Assembly (NCBI GenBank): GCA_026645735.1
Contig: JAPKMT010000023.1
Location: 1 to 46,053, forward strand
Length of the DNA stretch: 46,053 nt
Origin: Flexilinea sp.
GTDB lineage: Bacteria; Chloroflexota; Anaerolineae; Anaerolineales; Anaerolineaceae
Direction: 5' to 3'
The notes under the pieces are model-generated. The model saw only the letters and a list, made by a program, of their open reading frames with translations. It ran no database searches and was not told the DNA's origin. Shown one piece after another: positions 7,233 through 42,876 of this stretch (the first letter of the stretch is position 1; each line of letters begins with the position of its first letter). The translations under genes were made by a program, and so were the position numbers.

Positions 7233-8225
7233 CTATAGAATAACCGGTTTTTCCAAGATTTCTGTAAGCAGTTGAATGGAGTTTTCGACATCTTTCCAAT
7301 CCACCATTTCAGAGGGAGAATGAACATACCGGCAGGCAACGGAAAGACAACCCGATGGAACGCCTGAGCGAGCGAATTGAATTGCACCGGCATCCGTTCC
7401 AGCATATCGCAGGACTTCCATCTGATAAGGAATTCCTTTCCTCTCAGCAGCATCAGTCATCGTTTTGATGACCTTGGGATGGGAAATCAGCATACTGTCC
7501 TTTATTTTTACGCAAGGTCCCTTTCCAAGAACCGGATTCAACTGTTCTCCGCCTGGAACATCTGATGAGATGGTTACGTCAACCGCAATTCCCATGTCAG
7601 GATCGATAGCATAGGCTGATGTAACCGCACCGCGTACACCAACTTCCTCCTGGACTGTGAAAACGAAATATAATTCATTTGGTGAATCTTTTATAGATTT
7701 CAGCGTTTCGATCGTTATCAAACAACCAATCCGGTCATCCAGTGCTTTTGAAACCACGCGGTTTCCCAGATCCAAAAAAGGTCTGACAAAAACACCGACA
7801 TCGCCAACCTTTATCGGACAATCCTCTTTGGATGAAGCACCGACGTCTACAAACAACTGTGTGACGTCTGGAATTTTGTTCATTTTTTTCGTCTCTGCGT
7901 AAACGACACCTTCAGTGCCGTCCATAAATTTAACGCGGGTGCCGAAACAGGTCAGCGGATTAATTCCCCCGATGAACGCGATATAAACAAAGCCATCTTT
8001 ATCGATATGCGATGCCATCACACCAAGCTCGTCCATATGCGCAGAAATCATGATCCGTTTTCCGTCCTGCTTCTGCGTCCCTTTTCTGGCAATCAGGTTG
8101 CCCAGAGCGTCGATATGAATTTCATCAACAAAAGGTTCTATTTCTTTTTGAATAAAATTCCGTATTTCTTTTTCATACCCGGAAGGGCCGAAGGTTTGAG
8201 TCAGTGTGTTCAGTAAATTTTTCAT
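7233..8225 (-). CDS. M42-family metallo-aminopeptidase
   Basis: A 330-residue protein with the M42 landmarks: AHMDELG (His63, Asp65), KALDDRIG with the bridging Asp, TVQEEVGVRGA with the catalytic Glu pair, a DAGAIQ segment and CRYVHSP near the C-terminus. M42 enzymes are cytosolic, dinuclear-metal aminopeptidases that often form dodecameric tetrahedral shells and trim peptides. Members are often misannotated as endoglucanase or cellulase M. AAGGAG precedes the ATG at good spacing. It is the last of three M42 genes in the same direction, 38 bp after its neighbour. Confidence 0.93.
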   Translation of the reverse strand: MKNLLNTLTQTFGPSGYEKEIRNFIQKEIEPFVDEIHIDALGNLIARKGTQKQDGKRIMISAHMDELGVMASHIDKDGFVYIAFIGGINPLTCFGTRVKFMDGTEGVVYAETKKMNKIPDVTQLFVDVGASSKEDCPIKVGDVGVFVRPFLDLGNRVVSKALDDRIGCLITIETLKSIKDSPNELYFVFTVQEEVGVRGAVTSAYAIDPDMGIAVDVTISSDVPGGEQLNPVLGKGPCVKIKDSMLISHPKVIKTMTDAAERKGIPYQMEVLRYAGTDAGAIQFARSGVPSGCLSVACRYVHSPSEMVDWKDVENSIQLLTEILEKPVIL

Positions 8226-8263: not shown

Positions 8264-9349
8264 TCAGCGGTCAGCTTTGAGAACATCCGCATGGATGTGC
8301 GCAAGCGCAGCAGTCATTAATTGGAAGTGCTTTTCCCAATCAGCGATTCGAACGATCATGGCAGCTGTATGGGCATAACGACCCGGGACTGAGATCGCTG
8401 CAGTTGGGATACCGCTCTTTGACAAATGGATTGCGCCAGCATCGGTTCCGCCGGGTCCAGGTTGGCGAATCTGATACGGAATCGCATAGTCTTCGCAGAT
8501 CGAAGTCAGATAGCGAATTAATCGGTAATCATACATGGTTCGTCCGTCAGAAGTATAAATAGCGGGACCTTGATTCAGTTTGGTTTTGTAACGTGTATTT
8601 TCAGATTCGTCCCAGGCTGGCTGATCATTGGCAGGTGTACAGTCAATAACAAAAGCCACATCCGGTTCATAATGAAATGCTACAACTTTCGCTCCACGCA
8701 ATCCAATTTCTTCCTGAACGGTAAAAGCAGCGATTAATTCAATGGATTCCGGACAATATTTGATTAATTGAATTAATGTGGCAACACCAATTCGATTATC
8801 TAATGCTTTTCCACAAATACTGGGGCCCATGCGCATGAATTTTGTTGCAAATGTTCCATATTCTCCCGGCTGTATATCGGAAGTACCGGGTCCTGTGTCA
8901 ATTCTTAAAGAATCAACAGCTAAAATTCTTTCCCGTTCTTCCCTTGTGGATAAATGAACAGGGCAAGCACCGATAACACCGGGTTTTTGATTTTTTCCAA
9001 TTTGAACAGGTTTTCCAGGAAGGGCACGCTCATCGATTCCTCCAATTACTTTAAAACGGAAAATTCCATCCGATTCTTTTTCCACAAGCATGAATCCGAC
9101 TTCATCCATGTGAGCTGCGATCAGTACTTTCAGTGGATTTTCAATTTTTGCTTTTTTAAGTGCAATCAGATTTCCCAGAGCATCGGTGTGTAACGCGTCA
9201 ACAAATCCGATAATCTCATCCCGTACAATTGCCCGGACCGCATTCTCATTCCCGGATACACCCGCGGTATTGCTTAAATTTTCAAGCAGCTTAATGATCT
9301 CATCCGTCAGGGCAGGAAGATGGATCAAATGATCTTTTTTTGTATTCAT
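8264..9349 (-). CDS. M42-family metallo-aminopeptidase (second of three)
   Basis: A 361-residue protein with AHMDEVG (His80, Asp82), KALDNRIG, TVQEEIGLRGA, GGTDAGAIH and GRYAHT, all expected metal-ligand or catalytic segments of M42 peptidases. Its ATG overlaps the stop of the upstream M42 gene (ATGA), so the two are translationally coupled. It differs clearly from the two flanking paralogues, which argues for old duplication and distinct residue preference rather than recent copying. Substrate specificity cannot be read from the sequence. Confidence 0.93.
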   Translation of the reverse strand: MNTKKDHLIHLPALTDEIIKLLENLSNTAGVSGNENAVRAIVRDEIIGFVDALHTDALGNLIALKKAKIENPLKVLIAAHMDEVGFMLVEKESDGIFRFKVIGGIDERALPGKPVQIGKNQKPGVIGACPVHLSTREERERILAVDSLRIDTGPGTSDIQPGEYGTFATKFMRMGPSICGKALDNRIGVATLIQLIKYCPESIELIAAFTVQEEIGLRGAKVVAFHYEPDVAFVIDCTPANDQPAWDESENTRYKTKLNQGPAIYTSDGRTMYDYRLIRYLTSICEDYAIPYQIRQPGPGGTDAGAIHLSKSGIPTAAISVPGRYAHTAAMIVRIADWEKHFQLMTAALAHIHADVLKADR

Positions 9350-10428
9350 TGCTCATCCTCCCATTTAATTTTCTCGATAAAATCCGGTGTGAGCCTTGCA
9401 ATGAATTCTGCCATCAAGTGACCTGTACGCATGACATCTTTAATGGATATAATTTCGACTGGTGTGTGCATATAACGTAACGGAATGCTAAGTAAGATTG
9501 TCGGTACCCCGGCACCTGTGATTTGAATCGGATCTGCATCAGTTCCTGACATTAATGGCTGCGGGGACAAGGTATAGGGTATATCAAGCTGTTCACAGAG
9601 TTGTTTCATTTCATTGAATAACATCGGATGTAAATTTGCCCCATATCCGATGGATACACCGCTTTCCAATGCAACGGTTCTCCATCCATCTGCGCCTGGC
9701 CCTTTTGCAAATGTAACATCAATTGCGATGGCTAAATCCGGTTGAATGTCAAAAGGAGAGGTAGCCCCTCCCAGAAAAGCAGTTTCTTCTTGCGTGGTTC
9801 CAACCGCATAAACGTCCCACTGGTGATGAAAATGCTGTAATTCCACCAGGCATTGTGTTACAGCGGCAACAGAAGCACGATTATCCAGGCTGTGTCCAGC
9901 GATGCAATCTGAAGGAAGTTCTTGCGGCAAATTCGCATAGGAAACAATATCTCCGACCTGGAAAATTGCTTTTACGGTCTGTTCGTCTAAACCGGTATCG
10001 ATGACTAACTGGTCTAAAGGCACCGGTTTCCCCTCATAGGATTCTGAGAGCAGATTGGGAGCAAGCTGAACGATGACACCTGGAAATTCCCCTTTTTGAC
10101 TGTGGATGGTAACACACTGTCCAGGCAAAATTCTTGGATCAAACCCTCCAATTGGTGCAAAATACAGGAGCTCCCCTGAAACTTTTGCCACAACCATACC
10201 GATACCATCCATATGGACAGCCAGCATGATTCGTTTGGTTTTTCCGTCTTTCGAAGGACTGCCTCTTTTGATACCATACAGATTTCCGATTTTTGAAACT
10301 CTCACTTCATCGACCAATGGCTCCCATGTGGTTGCTATGGCGTTTGTGACAGGAGTTTCATAACCGGAAATCCCGGACAGAGAAATAATTTCACATAAAA
10401 ATTCTTTGATTTTTGTTTTTTCTTCCAT
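9346..10428 (-). CDS. M42-family metallo-aminopeptidase (first of three)
   Basis: A 360-residue M42 protein and the most divergent of the three. The first motif is VHMDGIG (His72, Asp74) with Gly75 where the other two have Glu. HSLDNRAS, TTQEETAFLGG, GTDADPIQ and LRYMHTP supply the other metal-site segments, so it should still bind two metals. GGGGAA lies just before the ATG. It begins the three-gene set transcribed toward 7233. Upstream on the same strand lie the paired palindromic repeats at 10503-10750. Confidence 0.92.
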   Translation of the reverse strand: MEEKTKIKEFLCEIISLSGISGYETPVTNAIATTWEPLVDEVRVSKIGNLYGIKRGSPSKDGKTKRIMLAVHMDGIGMVVAKVSGELLYFAPIGGFDPRILPGQCVTIHSQKGEFPGVIVQLAPNLLSESYEGKPVPLDQLVIDTGLDEQTVKAIFQVGDIVSYANLPQELPSDCIAGHSLDNRASVAAVTQCLVELQHFHHQWDVYAVGTTQEETAFLGGATSPFDIQPDLAIAIDVTFAKGPGADGWRTVALESGVSIGYGANLHPMLFNEMKQLCEQLDIPYTLSPQPLMSGTDADPIQITGAGVPTILLSIPLRYMHTPVEIISIKDVMRTGHLMAEFIARLTPDFIEKIKWEDEQ

Positions 10429-10502: not shown

Positions 10503-10615
10503 ATTCGAATTATGAGAGGGATTATTTGTTGATGTGTTGTTTTTGCGCGGAGCGCAAAAACAACACATCAACAACTTTTCTCTTTTTTCTCAAGAGGCTT
10601 TTCCATATTTCGAAT
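10503..10615. repeat. GNA-loop palindromic repeat, copy 3
   Basis: A perfect 23 bp stem (10526-10548 with 10552-10574) is capped by GGA inside GCG-GA-GC. The outer arms are ATTCGAATTAT (10503-10513) and ATATTTCGAAT (10605-10615), with one mismatch. The element is 113 bp long, the same as copy 2. It stands 44 bp from copy 4 in the same orientation. Confidence 0.87.
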
Positions 10616-10659
10616 TGTTGAATTCCAACAGTTCCAGCAATTCAAAAAATGATTTGGCT

Positions 10660-10750
10660 TTTCGAATAATGAAAAAAATTGTTGTTCTCAAGGTTTTGCG
10701 CGAAGCGCAAAACCTTGAGAACAACATAGAATTCTTTTCATATTTCGATT
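10660..10750. repeat. GNA-loop palindromic repeat, copy 4
   Basis: A perfect 22 bp stem (10680-10701 with 10705-10726) is capped by GAA, giving the core GCGAAGC. The outer arms are TTTCGAATAAT (10660-10670) and ATATTTCGATT (10740-10750). The outer half of the stem (GTTGTTCTCAAGG) differs from the other copies, yet both strands of the stem changed together. After the right arm comes a GCAACAGTTCAGCGATTC tail similar to the tail after copy 3. Confidence 0.87.
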
Positions 10751-10825
10751 TATTGCAACAGTTCAGCGATTCATAAAAAGGGAGGAAAATCGGAACCTTA
10801 TCAATGTTAATCGCAACCTTGCGTT

Positions 10826-11722
10826 TTACAACTCCTTTTTCACAGTTCTGACCAGTTCATCAGCTTTCAAACCGGCAACCAGATAACACGGTGCATTTAA
10901 TTGTTTTGCAAGTTCAGCTGCCAATCCCTGATCAAATGTATATTGTTCCATGTCAATCACAATACTGCGAAATCCTTCATCTCGAATTTTCTCAGCAATT
11001 TTCCTGGATTCTACTAAAGGATCTGCATTTCCCATCGCCACGTTCCCGGCACCGTCTGTCAGAATAATTAGAAGTGAATTGACGTCCGGATGGATTTGTT
11101 TTTCATGTTTCAATAACTCATAAGCTTTCCATAATCCAGCGGAAAGTGGTGTTTTCCCACCCACTCTTACCCGTTTCATGGATCTTTCTGCAAGCATTAC
11201 TGAATGAGTTGGCGGCAAAATGACTTTTGCACTGTCTTTTTGGAACGTAATCAGACCAACTCGATCCCGTTGTTGATAAGCATTTGTCAGGAGTGATAAA
11301 ATCGCACTTTTTGTAATTGCCATCCGTTCCTGAACAGCCATAGACCATGAGAGATCTACCAGAAAGAGCAACAAATTGGATGATTTTCTCATCCTTACTT
11401 TCTCCATAATGTCCTGTCTTTGGACAATCAACTTTTTAGCCTTTTCATCGTTTTTTCTTGATTTTTGAAAAGGTGCAGCTGCACGGATGGTAGCATCAAA
11501 AGCAATATCCCGGATTCTATCCAAAGCAGGGCGGGCTTTTATGTAATGCCCCCGTCGGTCTTTCGAGATAATCCGGGATCTTTTTCCAGAGCTTTTCTTT
11601 TGAGAGGCAGATGGAGTGTATTCGTTTGAGATCAGCGGTGTGTCGAAGTTAAAATTTCGGGCACCGTCCCACCATGCTCCCTGTCCGGAATTGAAAATGG
11701 TATCCCCGGTATGAGAATACAT
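10826..11722 (-). CDS. VWA-domain chelatase subunit (ChlD C-terminal part), probably expressed by -1 frameshift
   Basis: Counting from its first ATG this is a 298-residue protein. A basic linker (about 40-110) is followed by a VWA domain with the MIDAS set DLSWS (Asp123, Ser125, Ser127), GGKT (Thr191) and LTDG (Asp223). It matches the C-terminal half of ChlD/BchD or putative cobaltochelatase subunits. The ATG at 11722 has no ribosome binding site. The same frame is open further upstream to 11779 with no ATG, GTG or TTG, reaching back into the A9 run at the end of the ChlI gene. The likely product is therefore a ChlI-VWA fusion of about 680 residues made by -1 slippage, or else a free subunit from an inefficient start. 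Confidence 0.82.
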   Translation of the reverse strand: MYSHTGDTIFNSGQGAWWDGARNFNFDTPLISNEYTPSASQKKSSGKRSRIISKDRRGHYIKARPALDRIRDIAFDATIRAAAPFQKSRKNDEKAKKLIVQRQDIMEKVRMRKSSNLLLFLVDLSWSMAVQERMAITKSAILSLLTNAYQQRDRVGLITFQKDSAKVILPPTHSVMLAERSMKRVRVGGKTPLSAGLWKAYELLKHEKQIHPDVNSLLIILTDGAGNVAMGNADPLVESRKIAEKIRDEGFRSIVIDMEQYTFDQGLAAELAKQLNAPCYLVAGLKADELVRTVKKEL

Positions 11723-11763
11723 TGACGAATTGGCAGGAGCGACTGTGGCGATTGTGCCTTCAT

Positions 11764-12858
11764 TTAAATTTTTTTTTCCTCATCATTTAATTCTGATACG
11801 TTTTTGAAATCAGAATTTTCCGGTGCATTTTTGCCTCGTAATTGTTCAATTCGGTCTTGCAGCTCTTCGGTACTGATTTCTTTTTCAGAAAATGGCCCTT
11901 TTTGAAGTCTATGCGGTAATGCCAGTTCGGCTGCCATTGCGATATCCAAATCAGTGATATAAGTTCTACTATCGAAAGCAGCCTGAGCAACGGCTGTTTT
12001 TAAGATGACCAAATCAGCACGGTGACCTTCCACTTTCATAGATGCTGTTAAGGATGCAATCGAAATCAGATCATGATTCTGATATTTCACATGAGCTAAA
12101 TTTTTCCGGGCTGTGATGATTTTTTCCGAGAGAATATTCTCTTCTGTTTCCCATTCATGGCAGAAACTATCCGGATCCTTTTCATAATGGATCGTCCTTT
12201 TGATGATTTCAACCCGTTCCCAGGAATCTGCGATGCCGAAAATGTCCACTGCATGTGCAAATCGATCTAATAATTGCGGACGCAGGTCCCCTTCTTCCGG
12301 ATTCATAGTTCCAACTAAAATAAAACGAGCCGGGTGAGAAAAAGAAATTCCCTCCCGTTCGATTCTGTTGACTCCCATGGCAGCAGAATCCAGCAGGATA
12401 TCGACAACATGGTCTTCTAACAGATTCACTTCATCGATATATAACAGACCACGATTTGCGGCAGCTAAAACACCTGGTTCAAATCTTTTTTCTCCACTCT
12501 GAATCGCTTTTTCGATGTCTAACGTTCCAATTACGCGATCTTCTGTTGCAGAAACTGGCAGATTGATGAAAGGTGTTGGCCGTAAAATGACTGATATCGG
12601 AATATTCTTCGCCTGGCGTTCTTTGCATTCTGTGCACCAATGGACTTCATCCGAAGGGTTGCATCCAAACCTGCATTCCGCGATAACCTTTTCCTGCGGT
12701 AATAAAGCTGCCAGAGCGCGAGCAGCAGTCGATTTGGCGGTACCGCGTTCTCCGCGGATGAGAACTCCTCCAATACGAGGATCAACAGCATTTAAAATCA
12801 GGGCACGTTTCATCCGTTCCTGACCAACGATGGCAGTAAAAGGGAATATATTTGACAT
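11764..12858 (-). CDS. ChlI-type AAA+ chelatase subunit (Mg/Co-chelatase family)
   Basis: 364 residues from the ATG at 12858, chosen because the family starts close to FPFTAIVGQE. An upstream in-frame ATG at 12912 with GGAAG before it would add 18 residues. Walker A is GERGTAKST (36-44), Walker B GLLYIDEVNLL, and sensor GTMNPEEGDLRPQLLDRF. A cysteine set CRFGC..WCTEC (about 61-77) is typical of the putative-cobaltochelatase branch. The gene ends in an acidic tail (LNDEEKKI) across a run of nine A, with TAA just after. It would act as the ATPase motor of a metal-chelatase or a related MoxR-like remodelling complex. No large chelatase subunit (CobN/ChlH) is in the window, so the metal and pathway are open. 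Confidence 0.87.
   Translation of the reverse strand: MSNIFPFTAIVGQERMKRALILNAVDPRIGGVLIRGERGTAKSTAARALAALLPQEKVIAECRFGCNPSDEVHWCTECKERQAKNIPISVILRPTPFINLPVSATEDRVIGTLDIEKAIQSGEKRFEPGVLAAANRGLLYIDEVNLLEDHVVDILLDSAAMGVNRIEREGISFSHPARFILVGTMNPEEGDLRPQLLDRFAHAVDIFGIADSWERVEIIKRTIHYEKDPDSFCHEWETEENILSEKIITARKNLAHVKYQNHDLISIASLTASMKVEGHRADLVILKTAVAQAAFDSRTYITDLDIAMAAELALPHRLQKGPFSEKEISTEELQDRIEQLRGKNAPENSDFKNVSELNDEEKKI
11768..11778 (-). promoter_or_regulatory. A9 slippery site, candidate -1 programmed frameshift
   Basis: On the coding strand the ChlI frame reads GAG GAA AAA AAA ATT TAA. Slippage by -1 on the A-AAA-AAA heptamer changes this to AAA AAA AAT TTA and continues without a stop into the VWA frame. 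TGAGGA lies immediately upstream and could act as an internal Shine-Dalgarno stimulator. No strong downstream hairpin was found; GGC..GCC around 11759-11748 is weak. Transcriptional slippage on A9, or a sequencing error of one A, would have the same effect on the frame. Confidence 0.6.
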
Positions 12859-29854: not shown

Positions 29855-30820
29855 ATGACGGAAGATTCTCCGCTCTCAGGAAAGAAGATTTGTATCACTG
29901 GTGGTTCCGGCTTTTTAGGATCATTTGTTCAGGAAAGTTTGCGAAAACGCGGTATTCATGATTTTTTTATTCCTGCCTCAAAAAATTACAATTTGATTAA
30001 TGTTGCTGATATCAAGCGAATGCTGGAAGATTCCAAACCGGATGTAATTATCCATTTGGCAGCTAACGTGGGCGGAATCGGTGCAAATCGGGAGCATCCT
30101 GCTGAGTTCTTTTACGATAATCTCATGATGGGAGTGCAACTGATTCATGAATCCTGGAACTTTGGTGTCAAAAAAATGGTTGCAGTTGGTACAATTTGCG
30201 CTTATCCAAAATATACACCGATCCCGTTTAAAGAATCCGATCTCTGGAATGGATATCCGGAAGAAACGAATGCGCCTTATGGCCTGGCGAAAAAGATGTT
30301 GCTTGTTCAGTCACAAGCCTATCGACAGCAATATGGTTTCAATTCCATTTATCTGCTGCCAGTCAATTTATATGGGCCACGCGACAATTTCAGTCCGCGC
30401 TCTTCCCACGTGATTCCTGCATTAATTCACAAGTGCCATGAAGCGAAACTGAATGGGGATTCGGAAGTGGTCATATGGGGAGATGGAACGCCGACGCGCG
30501 AATTCATTTATGCCGGTGACGCAGCCGAAGGAATTGTCATGGCTGCCGAGTTCTACGACGGTTCGGAACCGGTTAACATCGGATCCGGATCCGAAATTTC
30601 CATTCGGGATCTGGCTGAAAAAATTGTAACAATGACCGGTTTCAAAGGGAAAATTGTCTTTGACCCGACCAAACCAAATGGACAACCACGGAGGGCACTG
30701 GATGTTTCCCGGGCAAAAGAATTTTTTGGCTTTTCTGCAAAGATGGATTTTGATACGGGATTAAAAAATACAATTGAATACTACATATCGAACCGCGATA
30801 CGATATTGAAAAAAGGCTGA
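29855..30820 (+). CDS. GDP-L-fucose synthase-like NAD(P)-dependent epimerase/reductase
   Basis: A 321-residue SDR with the Rossmann motif GGSGFLGSF (about 16-24). The Fcl-type sequence [21 protein letters not shown] is present, together with the catalytic Tyr/Lys pair YGLAKK, and [27 protein letters not shown] and NIGSG further on. Fcl converts GDP-4-keto-6-deoxymannose to GDP-L-fucose by epimerisation and reduction. The partner dehydratase Gmd is not in the window, so the exact product is inferred. AAGGACAC precedes the ATG. The following exporter gene starts after 14 bp. Confidence 0.87.
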
Positions 30821-30834
30821 TTCGGAGTAATATT

Positions 30835-31683
30835 TTGAATGTAAAAAATGTACCTGAAGCGATCATCACGATGATTCAGCCTTCTAAAGGTTGGAAAATC
30901 GTCGATTTAAAAGAATTAATACGATCACGCGAATTGATTTTTTTTCTGACCTGGCGGGACCTGAAAGTCCGTTACAAACAAACAATTCTGGGTGTTGCAT
31001 GGGCGGTTATCCAACCTGTCATGACCATGGTTGTTTTTTCCATATTCTTTGGCGGTTTAGCCGGAGTTCCTTCTGATGGCATTCCTTATCCATTGTTTTC
31101 ACTGGCGGGTTTGCTTCCCTGGCAGCTTTTTGAAAATTCGTTGAGAAATGCCAGCCGTTCCCTGGTTACAAACCGGAATATGATCACGAAGATTTATTTT
31201 CCACGGGTTGTTCTGCCGCTTTCCAGCGTGTTGGCATCCATTGTGGATTTTTTTGTTGCTGGTCCGATTCTAATTTTCATGATGATTTATTATCACTATT
31301 CACCTAACATTTACGCGCTTTTGATTCCATATTACATCTTGTTGACGATTGTTACCGCCTTTGGTGTGGGCTTGTGGTTTTCAGCCATGGATGTTTTGTA
31401 TCGGGATATCGGGTATATCATCCCGTTCCTTTGTCAGCTTTGGATGTATTTAACACCGATTGCATATGGGTCGGGAATGATTTCTAATCCAAAATTGCAG
31501 TTTATATACAACCTGAATCCTATGGTGGGTGTCGTCAATGGTTTCCGTTCCTCATTGTTGGGTGTTTATGCTGCAGTGCCTGTACAAAGCATAGTCTTCA
31601 GTTCAATCATCTCAATTTTGATCCTGGTCAGTGGATTGGTTTATTTCCGGCGGATGGAAAAACAGTTCGCCGATCTTATATAG
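30835..31683 (+). CDS. Polysaccharide ABC exporter permease (Wzm-like, ABC-2 type)
   Basis: A 282-residue protein starting at TTG, supported by GGAG seven bases upstream. A short cytoplasmic start with LIRSRELIFFLTWRDLKVRYKQTILG is the family's N-terminal amphipathic region. About six membrane helices follow, with the NPMVGVVNGFRSSLLG segment near the end. It pairs with the ATPase encoded 11 bp downstream to move lipid-linked glycan across the membrane. Confidence 0.92.
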   Translation: MNVKNVPEAIITMIQPSKGWKIVDLKELIRSRELIFFLTWRDLKVRYKQTILGVAWAVIQPVMTMVVFSIFFGGLAGVPSDGIPYPLFSLAGLLPWQLFENSLRNASRSLVTNRNMITKIYFPRVVLPLSSVLASIVDFFVAGPILIFMMIYYHYSPNIYALLIPYYILLTIVTAFGVGLWFSAMDVLYRDIGYIIPFLCQLWMYLTPIAYGSGMISNPKLQFIYNLNPMVGVVNGFRSSLLGVYAAVPVQSIVFSSIISILILVSGLVYFRRMEKQFADLI

Positions 31684-31694
31684 GGGAGAAAATT

Positions 31695-32963
31695 GTGCCT
31701 CAAAATTCAGTCATTGTAAGTCATATTGGCAAGAGATACAGAATCGGTGCTGCCCCTGCCTCTTATCGAACTTTTCGGGAGACGTTAATCGATACGTTAA
31801 CCAAACCAAAAAAACGTCTGCATGGAAAAATGACTGATGCAAACTCTTTCTGGGCATTAAAAGATATCTCCTTTAATGTAGAAAAAGGAATGGCACTGGG
31901 AATAGTCGGTCGCAACGGAGCCGGAAAAAGTACATTATTGAAAATTCTCTCCAGAGTGACAGAACCCACTGTCGGATCTGCTGTCATATCCGGAAGAGTT
32001 GGATCTTTGTTGGAAGTCGGAACCGGTTTTCATCCTGAATTGACGGGAAGAGAAAACATTTTTTTGAATGGTGCCATTTTAGGAATGAAACATGGTGAGA
32101 TTTCTCGAAAAATGGATGAAATTATTGCCTTCTCAGAAGTGGAAGATTTTATTGACACACCTGTAAAAAGATATTCAAGCGGTATGTATCTGCGTCTTGC
32201 CTTTGCAGTGTCCGCTCATCTCGAACCGGAAATTCTGGTGATCGATGAAGTCCTGGCTGTTGGAGATGCTGAATTTCAGCGGAAATGCCTTGGAAAAATG
32301 AGTGATGTCGCCAATCAAGGCAGGACCGTGTTATTTGTCAGTCATAACATGTCAGCCATTCTTCGGCTGACACAGGAAACAATTGTTTTGGAAAAAGGCA
32401 ATCTTGTGATGCAGGCGCCGTCTGGAGAGGCCGTGGATTATTATCTTTCACACGGTTTTTCACAGGAAGGATTCCGTGAATGGACTCCTGATGAAATTCC
32501 TGCTGAAGCCGCTCCCTTTGTTCCCGTGGCAATCCGAATACTGAATTATCAGGGTGATATTTCAGATACTGTGCGTTCAATACAACCGTTTTCTATTGAA
32601 TTTGAATATCGATTGGATGAACCGATCACAGGATTGCGGGTTGGAATCTATCTGATCAGTGTTCGGGGTGAATTCATCTTTACTTCTTTTGATGTCGATG
32701 ATTCAGCAAGATTCGAGGAATTCAGTGTACGTGACAAAGGTACCTATATCAGCCGATGTGTGATTCCGGCAGATTACCTGAATGAGGGACGTTTTGTTTT
32801 AGGTGTAAATGCGAGTACTTTTAAAATCAAGCGTTTTTTTCACGACGAACAAGCGCTTGTATTTCATGTGGATGGCACTGGAGCGCCGGGAACGCAATGG
32901 CCGGAACCACGCACCGGATTAGTTCGTCCAAGATTATCATGGGAAATAGAGGCGAAAAACTAA
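31695..32963 (+). CDS. Polysaccharide ABC exporter ATPase (Wzt-like) with C-terminal glycan-binding domain
   Basis: A 422-residue protein starting at GTG after AGGGGAG. Nucleotide-binding domain: Walker A GRNGAGKST (72-80), signature YSSGMYLRLAFAV, Walker B ILVIDEVLAVGD and the H-loop SHN. From about 250 onward comes the Wzt_C-type immunoglobulin-like domain (VAIRILNYQGDIS, ISVRGEFIFTSFDVDD), which in O-antigen exporters recognises the finished chain end. That suggests export in the Wzm/Wzt mode, with a chain-terminating modification; the methyltransferase gene downstream could supply it. Confidence 0.93.
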   Translation: MPQNSVIVSHIGKRYRIGAAPASYRTFRETLIDTLTKPKKRLHGKMTDANSFWALKDISFNVEKGMALGIVGRNGAGKSTLLKILSRVTEPTVGSAVISGRVGSLLEVGTGFHPELTGRENIFLNGAILGMKHGEISRKMDEIIAFSEVEDFIDTPVKRYSSGMYLRLAFAVSAHLEPEILVIDEVLAVGDAEFQRKCLGKMSDVANQGRTVLFVSHNMSAILRLTQETIVLEKGNLVMQAPSGEAVDYYLSHGFSQEGFREWTPDEIPAEAAPFVPVAIRILNYQGDISDTVRSIQPFSIEFEYRLDEPITGLRVGIYLISVRGEFIFTSFDVDDSARFEEFSVRDKGTYISRCVIPADYLNEGRFVLGVNASTFKIKRFFHDEQALVFHVDGTGAPGTQWPEPRTGLVRPRLSWEIEAKN

Positions 32964-34582
32964 TGCAAACGACTTATAAAGAAACCATCAGCAAAATTCT
33001 GGGTGAAATCCCCTTAACAGCCGAATTTTATTTCCAATTAAAGAATAAAGGTGAACCTGGAACCCGTTATTCTCTGAAGAATATTCAAGCCCGGCTGCCG
33101 CAAATTCTCAAGGATATTGAACAATTTAAAACTGAACAAAAGAAACCGAAAAAAATATTTGTTTTTACATCGCTCCATTATTGGGTCGAACAAGCTGCTA
33201 CTGTTTCTCTCTATTTTGCAGCGAAGGGACATCAGGTAACATTTGGTTATCTTCCTTATGCAGAGTGGCAAAAACCAATTAATAAATTTGATTTGCGCCG
33301 GCAAGACTTATATACAAAGAAAGTTTTTGAAGATGCTGTGAAGTATATGGATGTTGTGTCTTTCCTACCGATTCACCCTTCCTATAATTCCATTCCGGAA
33401 GAACTGCATCACATTATTGAAGAGGTTAGTACTTATGATACGCAATATACGCTTCAGGTGGAAGAGTTTGATCGGACGGATCCGTTATTTAAGATGCGAA
33501 TGGAACGAAATGAATCATTTGCGAGGCTCTTATATACCTGGTTGAAGAACAATCGGCCGGATTACGTGATCATACCCAACGGCACAATTCAGGAAATGGG
33601 CATTGCGTATCGAATTGCAAAATGGATGAATATACCGGTGACAACCTATGAATTTGGTGAACAGCGCAAACGAATCTGGATTGCACAAAATCGCGAGGTG
33701 ATGCGTCAGGAAACGGATGATCTTTGGGAAATACGAAAGAATATACCGGTCACTGATGAGGAACTTGAGAAAGTTAAAGCGATGTTCGGTGCCAGGCAAC
33801 ATGCCAATATTTGGGAGAATTTCTCACGACGCTGGCAGGGAAGTGATCGCGTCGGGAGTGAAAAAATTCGCGAAACTTTAAAATTAGATGAACGTCCGAT
33901 TGTTTTTTTAGCAACAAATGTTTTAGGCGACAGCCTAACACTGGGGAGACATACTTTTTCAAAAAATATGGCTGAATGGATCGAACGGACTGTTCAATAT
34001 TTTGTGGAACGAACCGATGCTCAATTGGTGATCCGTGTACATCCAGGAGAGCAATTGACACATGGGACGTCCATGGTGGATGTCGTTCGTAATCTGCTGC
34101 CCAAACTGCCGGAACATATTCATCTGATAACTCCGACGGACAAGACCAATTCCTATGATCTGGTGGATATTGCCCGTCTGGGTCTGGTTTACACAACGAC
34201 GATGGGTCTTGAAATGTCCATGAGTGGAGTGCCGGTAATCGTTGCCGGACAAACCCATTATCGTGGAAGAGGATTTACATTTGATCCGGAAAACTGGGTC
34301 AGCTATTATAAGATTTTGGGTGGAATGCTGGATGATCCTGAGAAAGCTTCACTGAGTGAAATCCAGGTAAAGCAGGCATGGGCTTATGCTTATTCCTTCT
34401 TCTTCGAGTATGCACGACCATTCCCGTGGCATCTGGTGAAAATGTGGGATGATTTTGACAGACGTCCTTTCTCTTATGTATTGAGCAAAGAAGGACAAAT
34501 TGAATATGGAACCAGCTTCGAGTATCTGATCGGGAAAAAATTAGATTGGACCGAAATTTTTGCCGACAAAATGGATAAATAA
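32963..34582 (+). CDS. Capsule-type glycan biosynthesis protein, likely GT-B glycosyltransferase
   Basis: 539 residues from the ATG at 32963, which overlaps the Wzt-like gene's stop (TAATG) and has GAGG upstream. An in-frame ATG at 32897 would lie inside Wzt and is unlikely. The N-terminal half has a Rossmann-like KKIFVFTSLHYWVEQAATV; the C-terminal half has VIRVHPGEQ, LVDIARLGLVYTTTMGLEMSMSGVPVIVAG and GFTFDPE. The latter is the nucleotide-sugar-binding arrangement of capsule-synthesis (KpsC/KpsS- or TagF-like) proteins. Donor and acceptor cannot be assigned. It resembles the product of 42877-44388 only in that fold. Confidence 0.72.
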   Translation: MQTTYKETISKILGEIPLTAEFYFQLKNKGEPGTRYSLKNIQARLPQILKDIEQFKTEQKKPKKIFVFTSLHYWVEQAATVSLYFAAKGHQVTFGYLPYAEWQKPINKFDLRRQDLYTKKVFEDAVKYMDVVSFLPIHPSYNSIPEELHHIIEEVSTYDTQYTLQVEEFDRTDPLFKMRMERNESFARLLYTWLKNNRPDYVIIPNGTIQEMGIAYRIAKWMNIPVTTYEFGEQRKRIWIAQNREVMRQETDDLWEIRKNIPVTDEELEKVKAMFGARQHANIWENFSRRWQGSDRVGSEKIRETLKLDERPIVFLATNVLGDSLTLGRHTFSKNMAEWIERTVQYFVERTDAQLVIRVHPGEQLTHGTSMVDVVRNLLPKLPEHIHLITPTDKTNSYDLVDIARLGLVYTTTMGLEMSMSGVPVIVAGQTHYRGRGFTFDPENWVSYYKILGGMLDDPEKASLSEIQVKQAWAYAYSFFFEYARPFPWHLVKMWDDFDRRPFSYVLSKEGQIEYGTSFEYLIGKKLDWTEIFADKMDK

Positions 34583-35472
34583 TGAACGACCCTGAGATTA
34601 AACAGAACGTACGTGCATTTTATGACCAGATTGGCTGGAAGAAAGAGTCTGATGGATATTATCAAAATGCTCGGTATGAAGACTTGCGACCGGTTTCTGC
34701 TGAATATATTCACCGTTGCCATATGCGGATCACCCCCTATTTTTCAGCCGGCGGAAAATTTTTTCTGGATGCCGGATCAGGTCCGGTTCAATACCCTGAA
34801 TACCTGACTTATTCGATGAATTTTGAAAAAAGAGTGTGTGCGGATATCTCCATTACCGCTTTGATAGAAGCTCGGAAAAAAATTGGCGCCCACGGTCTTT
34901 TTGTGGTCGCTGATGTTGCCAATCTCCCATTTTCTGCACAAGCTTTTGATGGAATTGTTTCGCTTCACACGCTGCATCATCTGCCATTGGAAGAGCAAAA
35001 AAAAGCCTGGCTGGATTTAATTCGAGTGTTGGCGCCAAAAAGAACTGCAGTGGTGGTAAATGGTTGGACAGAGTCAGGAATGATGAAAAAATGGCAAAAT
35101 ACGATGGGAACAATGGAGAAAATCGGCCGTTTTGCTGCAAGACTTCGAGGAAAAGATCGGAAAAAAGAACAAAAAGTTAAGCAAATCGATGCTAATGCTT
35201 CTCAGGCTACAGGAACGTTTGTGCAGAAATTGGATGCAGCCTGGATTAAAAACACATTACGTTTTCCGGAAACCTTGTCGGTTGAGATCAGGTGCTGGCG
35301 AAGTGTCAGTGTTCGCTGGCTGCGTGCGATGATTCATCAGCCTTATGGCAAACTTGCTCTGCGTATCTTGTTCCGAAATGAAGAAAAAAGACCTGAATTT
35401 TATGGTGAATATGGTCAGTATCCGTTGATCATTGTAAAAAAAATTGAAAATTGTAAGACTGAAAACTCATAA
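34582..35472 (+). CDS. Class I SAM-dependent methyltransferase
   Basis: A 296-residue protein. Motif I is FLDAGSGPVQYPEY (about 55-68), followed by ADIS and ADVANLPFSAQAFDGIVSLHTLHHLP, the usual SAM-binding and post-motif regions. A basic insertion (about 180-215) separates the core from the C-terminus. Its ATG overlaps the preceding stop (TAATG). In a Wzm/Wzt cluster a sugar methyltransferase commonly caps or decorates the glycan. It also looks like a UbiE/COQ5-type protein, so the acceptor is only inferred. Confidence 0.85.
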   Translation: MNDPEIKQNVRAFYDQIGWKKESDGYYQNARYEDLRPVSAEYIHRCHMRITPYFSAGGKFFLDAGSGPVQYPEYLTYSMNFEKRVCADISITALIEARKKIGAHGLFVVADVANLPFSAQAFDGIVSLHTLHHLPLEEQKKAWLDLIRVLAPKRTAVVVNGWTESGMMKKWQNTMGTMEKIGRFAARLRGKDRKKEQKVKQIDANASQATGTFVQKLDAAWIKNTLRFPETLSVEIRCWRSVSVRWLRAMIHQPYGKLALRILFRNEEKRPEFYGEYGQYPLIIVKKIENCKTENS

Positions 35473-35510
35473 TTTTCAGTTGGATTCGGAATATCTTGAA
35501 GGAGAATTGA

Positions 35511-36518
35511 ATGGACTGGACAAATAAAGTAGTCTTAATTACTGGCGGGACCGGTTCTTTTGGCAAAAAATTCATCAGGACGATGTTGAATGAATATCAT
35601 CCTGCAAAGATTATCGTTTACAGCAGAGATGAATTAAAACAATACGAAATGCAAATCTCAGGTTATGACGATCCAAGTTTGCGATATTTTCTTGGTGACA
35701 TTCGCGATCTTCCCAGGTTGAAACGAGCCTTTGAGGGAGTGGATATTGTGGTACATGCTGCTGCGTTAAAACAGGTTCCTGCTTGTGAATACAATCCGAT
35801 GGAAGCTGTTAAAACAAATATTCTTGGCAGTCAAAATGTCATTGAAGCCGCTCTTGACGCCGGTGTGAAAAAAGTTCTCGCAATTAGCACCGATAAGGCA
35901 GTTAATCCGCTAAATTTGTATGGGGTTACAAAATTGGCTGCTGAAAAACTCTTTATTCAAAGTAACTCTTATGCAGGCGGTCGTACCGTGCGCTTTTCCT
36001 GTGTTCGATACGGAAATGTGGTTGGCAGTCGCGGATCTGTAGTTCCGGTTTTTCTGCGGCAAAGTGCAAATGGCACGTTGACGGTAACGGATGAACGGAT
36101 GACGCGATTCTGGATTTCTCTGGAAAATGGCGTCCATTTTGTCATTCGCTGCACAGAACAGATGTATGGAGGTGAAGTTTTTGTTCCGAAAATTCCCAGT
36201 ATGGCGGTTAAGGATCTGGCGACAGCCATCGCTCCGGAAGCACAAATTATGTATACTGGCATTCGTCCGGGAGAAAAACTGCATGAAGTTCTGATTTCTG
36301 AGGATGAGGCACGAAACTCAGTTGAACTGAGTGATATGTTTGTAGTGCAGCCGACCGGAACCACCTGGTTTGGTCGTGAATGGGAAAAAATTGGCAAACC
36401 GCTGCCAGAAGGATTCCATTATTCCAGTGATAATAATTCGGAATGGCTCAATTTGGAAGGTGTTAAACGGATGATTGCTCCTTTTAAAGAAGCATTTGAT
36501 AACGGACATCCTAAATGA
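35511..36518 (+). CDS. UDP-N-acetylglucosamine 4,6-dehydratase (inverting), PseB-like
   Basis: A 335-residue SDR with GGTGSFGKKF (about 12-21), KQVPACEYNPMEAVKTNI, and the catalytic STDKAVNPLNLYGVTKLAAEK with the Tyr and Lys. The STDKAVNP form is typical of PseB, FlaA1 and CapE-type inverting 4,6-dehydratases. It makes a UDP-2-acetamido-2,6-dideoxy-4-ketohexose, inverting at C5 in the PseB case. AAGGAG precedes the ATG. Its stop overlaps the next gene's ATG (ATGA). It feeds either 6-deoxy-aminosugars or pseudaminic-like acids; the gene context is discussed under findings. Confidence 0.9.
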   Translation: MDWTNKVVLITGGTGSFGKKFIRTMLNEYHPAKIIVYSRDELKQYEMQISGYDDPSLRYFLGDIRDLPRLKRAFEGVDIVVHAAALKQVPACEYNPMEAVKTNILGSQNVIEAALDAGVKKVLAISTDKAVNPLNLYGVTKLAAEKLFIQSNSYAGGRTVRFSCVRYGNVVGSRGSVVPVFLRQSANGTLTVTDERMTRFWISLENGVHFVIRCTEQMYGGEVFVPKIPSMAVKDLATAIAPEAQIMYTGIRPGEKLHEVLISEDEARNSVELSDMFVVQPTGTTWFGREWEKIGKPLPEGFHYSSDNNSEWLNLEGVKRMIAPFKEAFDNGHPK

Positions 36519-37486
36519 GTCAACAACACACCATGGCATCCACCGATTTACCGGCAAGCAAGAAAAAACTGCTGGTAACAGGAGCTTCCGGCCTGCTGGG
36601 TTTAAATCTGGCTTTACAGCTGAGAGATGCTTATCAAGTGACAGGTGTTTTCAATCAGAAGCGGATGCATCAAACTCCCTTTGAATTAATTCAGGGGGAT
36701 TTTTTTGTGGAAAATACCGCTGAAAAGCTGGTTGCTGAAGTACAGCCGGATGTGATCATCCATTGTGCTGCGATGGCGAATATTGATGCCTGTGAAAAAG
36801 ATCAAGAGAAGGCACATTATATTAATGGTGTTGTCCCTGGAAAAATTGCTTTCGAAGCCAGAAGAAATAAAATTCGTTTCATTCATATCTCAACGGATGC
36901 AGTATTTGACGGCGTGGATTGCGGCGAAAATGGTTATCATGAAGAGGATCGAACAAACCCAAACAATGTTTATGCTCAGACAAAATTACTGGGAGAACAG
37001 AATGTCATGGATCAGAATCCGGATGCTTTGGTAGCCCGTGTCAATTTCTATGGTTGGAGTGTGGCACAAAACCGAAGTCTGGGAGAGATTTTTTTCCAAA
37101 ATCTGATTCAAAAAAAACCGATGATGGGATTTACTGATGTTTTTTTCAGTACGCTTTACGTTCAAAATCTTGTTCGTATCCTGGATCGATTGATCCACGA
37201 ACAAGCTTCCGGTATCTATCATGTTTTCAGTTCTGATTATCAAAGCAAATATGAGTTTGGAGTATCCATTGCACGACGGTTTGGATTGGATGCGTCATTA
37301 ATTTCTCCGGTTTCGTGGAAAGACAGCGGATTGGCCGCAAAACGTTCACCCAATTTGATTATGAATACTGATAAACTGCAGCGGTTGTTGGGAGTCAGTC
37401 TGCCGACGCAAATGGAGAGCCTTGAAAATTTCTATCAGGCATATCGGGATGGACTGCCGGAATTATTAAAAAAGACTGGATTCTAA
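36515..37486 (+). CDS. SDR sugar reductase, RmlD-like
   Basis: A 323-residue protein with TGASGLLG (22-29), IHCAAMANIDACEKDQEKA, the ISTDAVFDG motif, and catalytic VYAQTKLLGEQ. This matches the RmlD family, which reduces dTDP-4-keto-L-rhamnose, and relatives that reduce 4-keto-6-deoxy-aminosugars. It is translationally coupled to the PseB-like dehydratase gene, so it most likely reduces that enzyme's 4-keto product. It lacks the C-terminal cupin of CapF/FnlB. Confidence 0.85.
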   Translation: MSQQHTMASTDLPASKKKLLVTGASGLLGLNLALQLRDAYQVTGVFNQKRMHQTPFELIQGDFFVENTAEKLVAEVQPDVIIHCAAMANIDACEKDQEKAHYINGVVPGKIAFEARRNKIRFIHISTDAVFDGVDCGENGYHEEDRTNPNNVYAQTKLLGEQNVMDQNPDALVARVNFYGWSVAQNRSLGEIFFQNLIQKKPMMGFTDVFFSTLYVQNLVRILDRLIHEQASGIYHVFSSDYQSKYEFGVSIARRFGLDASLISPVSWKDSGLAAKRSPNLIMNTDKLQRLLGVSLPTQMESLENFYQAYRDGLPELLKKTGF

Positions 37487-37631
37487 AGACGGATCTTGCA
37501 AAGGGATAATCCTTCCTGAAGTTATCCTCCATAATAGCTGAGGGATACAAATCGAAAACTTTTATCTTATAAGAATTACTCAATGAACAAATCAATTCAT
37601 CAGAAATCTTATACCGTAAACAGGATGAATT

Positions 37632-38699
37632 ATGAATAAAATAAAAATCGGTAACAAAACAATCGGGATTGATGACCCTGTATATTTCATCGCTGATATT
37701 GCTGCCAACCATGATGGCGATTTGAATCGGGCAAAACAATTAATTCATATTGCAAAAGAAAATGGTGCTGATGCCGCAAAATTTCAGAACTTTAAAGCTG
37801 AAAAAATTGTCTCCGATTACGGTTTCCGAACCATGGGCGGGCAGCAATCCCATCAGGCAAAATGGAAAAAATCCGTTTTTGAAGTTTATCAGGATGCTTC
37901 GGTACCCGATCGCTGGTCTTCCGAATTAAGAGAAACATGCGACAAAGAGGAGATTGAATATTTCTCTGCCCCATATGATTTTGAATCGATCGACTGGCTG
38001 GATGGGTACATGTCAGTGTATAAAATCGGATCCGGAGATATCGACTGGCTTGAATCATTGGAGCGAATTGCTTCAAAAGGCAAACCGGTTTTGCTGGCAA
38101 CCGGTGCCTCGGATTTGTGCGATGTGCAGCGTGCAGTTCACACAATCCTTTCGAAAAATTCACAACTGGTTTTAATGCAGTGCAATACCAACTATACAGC
38201 CAGCCTTGAAAACTTTCAATATATTCATCTGCGTGTTTTGCTGACTTATGCGGCGATTTGGCCGGATTTGATTTTGGGATTATCCGATCACACACCCGGA
38301 CATTCAACCGTTTTAGGCGCAGTAGCTCTCGGCGCCCGTGTGATTGAAAAGCACTTTACGGATGACAACAATCGAGAAGGTCCGGATCATAAATTTGCGA
38401 TGAATCCTGTCTCCTGGGCGGCAATGATCGAAAATACGCGCCAGTTGGAGAAAGCGCTGGGTTCTCCAGAAAAGTATGTTAACGAGAATGAATTGGAAAC
38501 TTCGGTAATCCAGAGGCGCTGTCTCCGTGCAGCTCGCGACATTAAAGCAGGTGAAGTTTTTTCAAGGGATATGATTGATGTATTGCGCCCTGCCGTCCCG
38601 GGAGCCATCAAACCACCGGAGATTTCTGCTGTAATTGGCATGAAAGCGTTGGTGGATATTCCATTTGGTAAAGAAATCAATTGGAGCCTGCTGGGATAA
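37632..38699 (+). CDS. Nonulosonic acid synthase (NeuB/PseI/SpsE family)
   Basis: A 355-residue protein. The TIM-barrel starts FIADIAANHDGDLNRAKQLI, with ADAAKFQNFKAEKI, KIGSGDIDWL, LATGAS, LMQCNTNYTA, LGLSDHTPGHS and GARVIEKHFTDD, the PEP- and metal-binding segments of NeuB enzymes. A C-terminal SAF antifreeze-like domain (about 288-355) is present. It condenses a six-carbon amino sugar with PEP to a nine-carbon acid. AGGA precedes the ATG. The preceding dehydratase and reductase fit a 6-deoxy substrate. Sialic, legionaminic and pseudaminic variants cannot be told apart by eye. Confidence 0.93.
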   Translation: MNKIKIGNKTIGIDDPVYFIADIAANHDGDLNRAKQLIHIAKENGADAAKFQNFKAEKIVSDYGFRTMGGQQSHQAKWKKSVFEVYQDASVPDRWSSELRETCDKEEIEYFSAPYDFESIDWLDGYMSVYKIGSGDIDWLESLERIASKGKPVLLATGASDLCDVQRAVHTILSKNSQLVLMQCNTNYTASLENFQYIHLRVLLTYAAIWPDLILGLSDHTPGHSTVLGAVALGARVIEKHFTDDNNREGPDHKFAMNPVSWAAMIENTRQLEKALGSPEKYVNENELETSVIQRRCLRAARDIKAGEVFSRDMIDVLRPAVPGAIKPPEISAVIGMKALVDIPFGKEINWSLLG

Positions 38700-38793
38700 A
38701 TCAACCAAAGCAAGATTGCGTATGGACGCCAATGTTGCTGGAAAAGTCAACTCAAATTCTCCTATAGGATCAGAAAGTTTTTTTCATAAATTT

Positions 38794-39918
38794 ATGAAAG
38801 TTTTATTTTTTTCAAGAGACTATACACCACATGATTATCGCTTTTTAAAGGCAATAACTGAAATAGGCCATGAGTGTTATTACTTGCGACTGGAAGATCG
38901 GGGTCAGAATCTGGAACGCAGAAATCTTCCTGACTCAGTGCGGTTGGTTGACTGGAAGTGGGGAAAGTTACATCGAAATCCTGCAAATGATCCTGATGTC
39001 ATCCATGATTTGAAAACAATCTGGAACGAAATCCGGCCGGATGTAATTCATACCGGACCGCTTCCGGATGTATCCTGGCTTGCAGCGAAAGCGGACTTGC
39101 ATCCGCATGCCGCGATGTCCTGGGGTTTTGATCTTATGCATGACATCGAAATCAGTGCCGAAATGAGAGCGACGACCGCAGCTGCATTGCAAAATGCGGA
39201 CTGGTTTTTAGGCGATTGTTATGTAGAACGCGATATGGCTGCATCTCTGGGATTGAATCCTGCCCATGCAACGATTTTTCCCTGGGGTGTTGATTTGAAG
39301 AAACTGGTTCGTGAAAAAAGTTCCATTCGAGAGAAACTGGCACAAGAGGACGACTTTGTTCTTATCAGTTTGCGAACAATGGAGCCAAATTACAGCGTTG
39401 CCACCATTGTGAAAGGTTTTTTGCTGGCTGCGCAAAAAATCGCATCCTTAAAGCTGTTATTAATAGGGGATGGCAGCCAAAAAAATATGCTGCAGCAAAT
39501 AGTATCCTTAGCTCCTGAGGATGTTCAGAAGCGTATTTTCTGGATTGGACGAAAAAAGAATGATGAACTGAAGGATTACTATTGCGCATCCGATCTTTAT
39601 CTAAGTGCATCGATTACGGATGGAACATCCGTGTCTCTGCTTGAGGCGATGGCATTTGAAGTTCCGGTGCTTGTTTCTGCTATTCCAGGTAATCTTGAAT
39701 GGGTGACAACAGGTGAAACGGGTCTTCTTTTTGAGACCAATAATGAACAGATGCTGTCAGAAAAAATCCTCTATTGTTATTATAATCAGGAAAAACTGGA
39801 TACAATCGCAAAAGCTGCGCGACGCATGGTGGACGAGAATGCTGACTGGGAAAAGAATAAATATTTATTGACAACCGCGTATGAACAGGCAATTGCAATA
39901 GCAAAAAGCAGAACTTAA
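38794..39918 (+). CDS. Glycosyltransferase family 4-like
   Basis: 374 residues from the ATG at 38794, chosen because the GT-B core starts MKVLFFSRDYTPHDY; in-frame upstream starts (38665, 38722) would overlap the NeuB-like gene or add an unlikely tail. No good ribosome binding site is seen. GT4 landmarks are RPDVIHTGPLPDVSWLAA, FPWGVDLKK, LLLIGDGSQKNML, RIFWIGRKKNDELKDYYCASDLYLSASITDGTSVSLLEAMAFEVPVLVSAIPGNLEWV, and GLLFE. These are the donor-site helix and EX7E-like acidic pair. It transfers a sugar in cell-surface glycan assembly; donor unknown. Confidence 0.87.
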   Translation: MKVLFFSRDYTPHDYRFLKAITEIGHECYYLRLEDRGQNLERRNLPDSVRLVDWKWGKLHRNPANDPDVIHDLKTIWNEIRPDVIHTGPLPDVSWLAAKADLHPHAAMSWGFDLMHDIEISAEMRATTAAALQNADWFLGDCYVERDMAASLGLNPAHATIFPWGVDLKKLVREKSSIREKLAQEDDFVLISLRTMEPNYSVATIVKGFLLAAQKIASLKLLLIGDGSQKNMLQQIVSLAPEDVQKRIFWIGRKKNDELKDYYCASDLYLSASITDGTSVSLLEAMAFEVPVLVSAIPGNLEWVTTGETGLLFETNNEQMLSEKILYCYYNQEKLDTIAKAARRMVDENADWEKNKYLLTTAYEQAIAIAKSRT

Positions 39919-40075
39919 CCGGTTTTATGAAGATATGTTCATATTTTGTTGCAAAGCAAGTGAAAATGAATTGGTGATGATCATAGTAAATGACACACAG
40001 CGAGATCGTTCCTGCAAAGGAAAAATCTCTTGATGTATGAGGAAAAATTAAAATGGTGAATTCCGGAAAGTACGC

Positions 40076-41769: not shown

Positions 41770-41804
41770 CATCGACGGATGATACGGAATACAAGGGAGA
41801 CACC

Positions 41805-42767: not shown

Positions 42768-42876
42768 AGTCAAATTCTCAAAACACACTGAAAGCGTCTC
42801 TCAGCGGGGACTGTTATGCTGAATTCACATGAATAACCAGCCGGGAGATTTTTGGATCATGATTTTCAGATAAAGT

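Follow-up and report, generated by a model that had tools for sequence, protein, structure and literature searches.

A candidate -1 frameshift site linking ChlI-type ATPase and VWA reading frames in a Flexilinea chelatase-family gene, and its conservation across the order

We analysed a window of 46,053 nucleotides from Flexilinea sp. (contig JAPKMT010000023.1) and propose that a gene on its minus strand is of the fs-chlD type, in which a single message probably gives both a 364-residue ATPase and a 677-residue AAA-linker-VWA fusion, the latter through a -1 slip that is most likely ribosomal. Standard decoding of the message would yield the 364-residue ChlI-type AAA+ ATPase, and a -1 slip on A AAA AAA within a run of nine adenines (A9) would yield the fusion. 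This would most likely be a tandem lysine-codon slip by the ribosome, perhaps aided by slippage of RNA polymerase, and the two products would probably form a joint AAA+/VWA motor, as suggested by BchI-BchD. We infer the occurrence of the slip, its rate and the machine responsible from features read directly in the sequence, namely the layout and the run, the conservation of both, and a coding constraint that spans the junction.

Gene structure and conservation of the A run

The ATPase ORF ends in GAG GAA AAA AAA ATT TAA, and the VWA-frame ORF lies in the -1 frame relative to it (Table 1). The former would serve both as the short product and as the N-terminal part of the predicted fusion, and the latter as its C-terminal part. 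An alternative ATPase start at ATG 12912 would add 18 residues, giving 382. The ATPase ORF scored 494 bits with TIGR02442 and 422.5 bits with TIGR02030, and its relatives in the PDB are the ChlI/BchI structures 6l8d, 8osf and 1g8p. The VWA-frame ORF matched the BchD VWA domain 2x31_A (1.9e-18) and contains the stretches DLSWS, GKTPLS and LTDGAGN, which we take to be MIDAS-type. The 677-residue fusion matched TIGR02442 over residues 5-659, at 753.1 bits. The initial annotation of this DNA had described the same ORF end and A9 run, had predicted a 364-residue ATPase and a fusion of about 680 residues, and had noted that the VWA frame, after its upstream TGA, offers no usual start until ATG 11722, which lacks a ribosome binding site. 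Each of these points was confirmed: the sizes are right with the ATPase starting at ATG 12858, ATG 11722 stands alone before the VWA homology, and no Shine-Dalgarno sequence was seen by eye before it.

Table 1. Features of the predicted dual-product gene and the M42 genes of the window
Feature	Position	Strand	Evidence or remark
Whole predicted dual-product gene	10826..12858	-	677-aa fusion predicted by -1 slip on A9
ChlI-type AAA+ ATPase ORF, 364 aa	11764..12858	-	Pfam AAA_lid_2, Mg_chelatase, AAA_5
TGA closing the VWA frame	11780..11782	-	just upstream of the A9 run
A9 run, candidate slip site	11769..11777	-	in-phase A AAA AAA
TAA, ATPase-frame stop	11764..11766	-	two bases 3' of the A9 run
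VWA-frame ORF, 317 codons stop-to-stop	10826..11779	-	Pfam VWA_2 1.1e-13, VWA 3.9e-10
ATG 11722	11720..11722	-	sole ATG/GTG/TTG of the VWA frame ahead of the VWA homology
M42 aminopeptidase 1	9346..10428	-	PF05343 6.6e-68; possible functional neighbour
M42 aminopeptidase 2	8264..9349	-	PF05343 3.7e-78
M42 aminopeptidase 3	7233..8225	-	PF05343 7.7e-89

An alignment of related genomes had been suggested as a check of the slippage reading, and it revealed that both the out-of-frame layout and the A run are conserved. Sixty-one genomes (the window's own genome and 60 relatives) were searched, and all matches at E 1e-90 or better, with six other loci, made up a first set of 66 loci. The -1 layout was present in 51 of these loci, the window included, and all 51 carry an A run. 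The loci left out were L002 and L066, with a weak or no ATPase match; L006, L018 and L057, truncated by a contig end; L007, fused with A10; L059 and L060, about 50% identical, with a +1 layout and without an A run; L061, fused, 51% identical and without an A run; and L032, L056 and L062-L065, which have an ATPase with no VWA found. A second set of 102 loci came from 102 of the 113 new genomes of the order with an ATPase match, and contained 94 loci with the -1 layout, two fused, two +1, one separate and three cut; A7, A9 or A10 was present in all 94. Over both sets, an A7-A10 run lies in the overlap of 145 of 145 -1-layout loci (the window and 144 others), with 13 A7, one A8, 96 A9 and 35 A10. 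These loci span 14 of the 15 families sampled in the order (families assigned by eye), and locus GC ranged from 41 to 69% across the first 51. Of the 161 genomes of an order sample that partly overlaps the 61-genome set, 142 had an ATPase match with E 1e-90 or below.

The A run at the ends of the ATPase ORFs is more than chance. A run of seven or more A occurs in the final 80 nt of 51/51 ATPase ORFs and in 3/611 control 80-nt stretches of the same ORFs, and dinucleotide shuffling (100 shuffles) left such a run in the final 80 nt of a mean of 9.7 and a maximum of 17 of the 51. Among more distant loci, 80 of 585 were kept for layout calling, and these comprised 33 -1, 17 +1, 16 fused, five same-frame split, two separate and seven without VWA. 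In most of the 33, more than 900 nt separate the ATPase and VWA matches, and these loci look like ordinary chlI and chlD neighbours, whereas the nine with a gap below 720 nt all carry A7-A10; one of the nine, L087, is on the same contig as L005.

Slippage, coding across the junction and alternative readings

If the ribosome slips at the run, a stimulatory element might be expected nearby, since frameshift signals of the fs-chlD type usually have a downstream structure (PMC9227772). No such structure was apparent in the window (55 nt from 5 nt past the run; z +0.43 against shuffles), and over the 51 first-set loci the mean z of the downstream fold was -0.36, similar to control windows (-0.32 at -300, -0.47 at +90, and between 0.34 and -0.16 in three further windows). 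All four A7/A8 loci among the first 51 had a downstream fold z below -1.7, a pattern noticed post hoc. A hairpin compensating for short runs was rejected, as the pattern was absent in the 94 new loci: short runs there had a mean z of -0.51 (n=10, one below -1.5) and long runs -0.42 (n=84, 13 below -1.5; Mann-Whitney p 0.24). A Shine-Dalgarno stimulator before the run was likewise not supported, the mean SD-like score being 4.47 against 4.14, 4.14 and 3.41 in controls. The TGAGGA that the initial annotation had pointed out is indeed present; it abuts the run and is not kept in all congeners (GCGGA in L004 and L016, CAGGA in L008), and its role as a stimulator is therefore doubtful.

The phase of the runs is informative about the slipping machine. 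The 14 runs that fall short of nine A (13 A7 and one A8) are all in the phase that gives A AAA AAA, and because ribosomal slipping demands this phase and polymerase slipping does not, the ribosome is favoured. A7 and A8 are too short for ready polymerase slipping. The 131 longer runs (A9 or A10) hold A AAA AAA in any phase and are uninformative on this question; the 14 short runs are confined to three families (by eye) and represent few independent events, so that the phase evidence for the ribosome is moderate. The alternative is transcriptional slippage, in which RNA polymerase would add an A on A9 and the resulting A10 messages would be translated normally into the same fusion. We consider this possible and rather unlikely. 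It suits the 131 of 145 runs that are A9 or A10 and the lack of a ribosomal stimulator that stands out, and by the same route the congener L007, fused with A10, could still yield both products; against this, the 14 A7/A8 runs all keep the phase needed for a ribosomal slip. In published work, bacterial polymerase slips at high efficiency on nine A or T (PMC5009743), A_AA.A_AA.G with a stimulator was one of the most efficient heptamers in an E. coli study (PMC4066793), and the excerpts of PMC9227772 cited here treat the chelatase-gene mechanism as ribosomal. At A9 either machine could slip, and on balance we favour the ribosome.

Evidence that the junction is translated came from codon evolution in the stretch that follows the run and precedes any ATG, GTG or TTG. 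In 20 non-overlapping pairs passing filters, substitutions at VWA-frame codon positions 1, 2 and 3 numbered 51, 40 and 135. Changed codons were synonymous in 90 cases and non-synonymous in 89 in the VWA frame, against 25/151 and 14/159 (synonymous/non-synonymous) in the other two frames. This stretch evolves as VWA-frame coding sequence, which supports slippage and disfavours a separate VWA start, since a stretch under this constraint and ahead of any usual start would be translated only via a slip or from a rare-codon start. Between the window and L003, the changes ahead of the ATG were four synonymous and two non-synonymous (E/D and T/S).

These observations bear directly on the possibility of two ordinary overlapping genes, with a 298-residue VWA protein made from ATG 11722 by re-initiation and without a slip. 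This ATG lies 41 nt past the ATPase stop, in L003 as in the window, and the first 51 loci include 10 with an ATG between -30 and +60 relative to the stop and seven in which the overlap itself contains a usual start. We nevertheless regard overlapping genes as very improbable: L004 has valine at the position of ATG 11722, where no Shine-Dalgarno sequence was seen in the window; no ATG, GTG or TTG precedes the VWA homology in 37/145 loci (13/51 and 24/94); the pre-start stretch is constrained as coding sequence; and the A run would be left unexplained. The initial annotation had held that a conserved start and ribosome binding site of the VWA gene would speak against slippage, and no conserved start of its own was found for this gene among the 145 -1-layout loci. 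At the level of sequence, the slippage reading that it put forward appears borne out by the run in 145 of 145 loci together with the VWA-frame constraint after it.

Exceptions to the -1 layout within the clade were three species fused with the run, two species +1 and one separated. In L007 (G009:C34, same genus as the window) the ATPase and VWA frames are fused through A10, and two other species are fused with A9 (L170, G110:C15) and with A10 (L207, G147:C51). In all three, both shifted frames hit a stop within one to seven residues. Their layout is the mirror image of the window's, with the run kept at the junction. These loci could make the short product by slipping, by analogy with E. coli dnaX; alternatively, they could be one-base assembly errors. 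The others are L225, +1 with A10; L228, +1 without a run; and L194, in which ATPase and VWA are separated by a stop and A10 is kept. The extra ChlI-like ATPase genes in L032 (G016:C23), L056 (G020:C19) and L062-L065, with no VWA match in the stretch, are 63-69% or 37-40% identical.

The initial annotation had named ten A, or an in-frame count, as an outcome that would tell against slippage. Such fused frames are seen in L007, L170 (with A9) and L207, while the window and L003 both have A9 with the -1 layout. L003, from a genome of three contigs (G010) and with an ATPase 97% identical, shows that this is not a homopolymer error of one assembly. That the true gene is one fused A10 frame, altered in the window by sequencing or assembly error or by decay, is suggested by these fused loci and has a negligible chance of being right given the independent A9 of L003, the -1 layout common to 145 loci, and window-L003 changes in VWA codons that are mostly synonymous (104/130 changed codons).

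Partner subunit, cobalamin genes and M42 neighbours

The likely role of the two products was approached through the genes that accompany them. In the genome that holds the window (G000; 3.35 Mb, 86 contigs, 92% complete), neither of two CobN/ChlH models, PF02514 included, gave a match. None was found in any of the 61 genomes, and one of the 161 genomes of the order sample (G082) had a partial match over 148/1090 positions, against 33/201 matched by the same model among genomes drawn from the phylum. At 92% completeness, a gene that the organism possesses could be lacking from the assembly of the window's genome. The genome has one ChlI-type gene and one weak match (3.0e-4). No second, separate small-subunit gene was found in it, and an extra close ATPase without VWA is present in G016 (L032) and G020 (L056). 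The fusion falls below the curated cut-off of TIGR02442 (putative cobaltochelatase; 753.1 against 779.45 bits, with L007 at 747.2) and below those of TIGR02030 (420.2 against 466.95 bits) and TIGR02031 (433.2 against 499.55 bits).

The same genome carries a cobalamin cluster (L275, G000:C41:7000-26500) in which Pfam identified CbiK, CbiD, CbiC, CbiG, CbiA-type and methylase ORFs. The CbiK ORF has a signal-peptide-like start and adjoining ABC-uptake-like ORFs (by eye); as a guess, this CbiK may be exported. CbiC is present in 10/14 genomes of the genus and in 14/61 overall, and as the ATPase gene is present in 142/161 genomes, the fs-chlD gene does not track B12 synthesis. A role as B12 cobaltochelatase was accordingly judged unlikely. 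Given the lack of any CobN/ChlH match and the presence of a gene for the cobalt chelatase CbiK, the fs-chlD gene here is probably not a B12 cobaltochelatase. By analogy with NorQ-NorD, the likeliest function is a putative MoxR/VWA-like remodelling or metal-insertion role.

Three M42 aminopeptidase genes lie downstream of the VWA gene on the same strand (Table 1). By ORF clustering, M42 genes follow in 13/21 neighbourhoods, and tblastn added a 14th (L078). All M42-positive neighbourhoods are of the window's family, to which 19/21 of the neighbourhoods belong, and the upstream neighbours vary between genera of the M42-linked neighbourhoods. In the congeners L050 and L054 the best M42 match is on the opposite strand, and L073 gave no M42 match by tblastn. 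None of the 102 second-set loci, which have short flanks, gave an M42 match; the 11 of these from the window's family (g11, g16 and g45, by eye) showed none in the roughly 0.5-1.5 kb behind VWA. Distant loci L088-L166 also had none. With respect to a MoxR/VWA-type system, AAA+ and VWA domains are both present, and the M42 linkage is seen in 13/21 loci and in 0/102 second-set loci. Within the literature collection searched, no paper joined an M42 aminopeptidase with a chelatase. As a speculative model that is more probably wrong than right by a wide measure, the fs-chlD of the order would be a CobN-free AAA+/VWA metal-insertion or remodelling machine with a subunit ratio set by slippage, not a tetrapyrrole chelatase, and its client may be the adjoining M42 metallo-aminopeptidases in part of the window's family.

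The gap between the VWA gene and M42 gene 1 in the window is 398 nt and contains a strong hairpin. Perfect inverted repeats with 20-bp arms lie at 10527-10573 and 10680-10726. With 40 of 300 first-look candidates scored, the stretch 10640-10800 has at least 60 matches in the genome of the window, the strong ones being 78-88% identical over about 85-130 bp, in many places and in both orientations; it is a dispersed palindromic, REP- or MITE-like family. Elsewhere in the window, at 29855-44388, ORFs resemble nucleotide-sugar enzymes, an ABC exporter, glycosyltransferases and a NeuB-like synthase, and judged from their translations this is probably a surface polysaccharide locus.

Relation to known systems

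Frameshifting in the chelatase gene family is already in print: in fs-chlD, small and medium subunits are made from one chlD gene by frameshifting, -1 being commoner than +1, and Chloroflexi are included among the carriers (Kuznetsov et al. 2022, PMC9227772). The initial annotation had pointed to work by Antonov (2020) on this mechanism, and PMC9227772 cites Antonov 2020 for exactly that. What is added here, and not met in the excerpts of PMC9227772 on which we draw, is the wider conservation data and the observations on CbiK and M42 linkage. Like fs-chlD genes, the present loci combine a ChlI-type ATPase ORF with a downstream VWA ORF in a different frame, the two adding up to a ChlD-like length, and an A_AAA_AAR-type slippery site lies in the overlap of all 145 -1 loci. 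They differ in several respects from what those excerpts describe. The stage-1 species there are without a B12 pathway, whereas the genome studied here encodes CbiK within a cbi cluster. A separate chlI accompanies fs-chlD in Anaerolinea, Ornatilinea, Longilinea and Levilinea, of the Anaerolineaceae; no second ChlI-type gene was found here. The usual downstream structure does not stand out here.

Overlapping ORFs with an A-rich heptamer are also shared with the magnesium chelatase genes of Atkins et al. 2016 (PMC5009743), where A_AAA_AAR is under purifying selection. The organisms named there, in the parts cited, are Pseudomonas, Delftia, Methanocaldococcus and Methanococcus, and high frameshifting was seen by heterologous expression, whereas the window gene is known from sequence. 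The dnaX gene (ribosomal in E. coli, transcriptional in Thermus; PMC5009743) likewise uses slippage on an A run to make two products, and a one-base change can swap which product depends on the slip, as between L007 (A10, fused) and the window (A9). It differs in its unrelated function, and the slip in E. coli yields the short product. NorQ-NorD (PMC13036017) offers an analogy of a MoxR-type AAA+ protein with a VWA partner and metal insertion without a CobN-type subunit; it differs in that its client is known, nitric oxide reductase, and in that the proteins here are of the ChlI/ChlD families.

Of the 15 families sampled in the order, 14 keep the layout, and the large subunit was found in one of 161 sampled genomes. 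A 'cobaltochelatase' or 'magnesium chelatase' annotation is probably misleading for the window gene. PMC9227772 lists Brevefilum fermentans, a chloroflexus, at stage 1 of its Table 1 with no large subunit and with function given as unknown, and describes the function as unknown for stage 1 and 2 species, which lack the large subunit. The order is well suited to studying the role of a ChlI-ChlD pair in the absence of ChlH/CobN, which the cited parts of PMC9227772 describe as unstudied.
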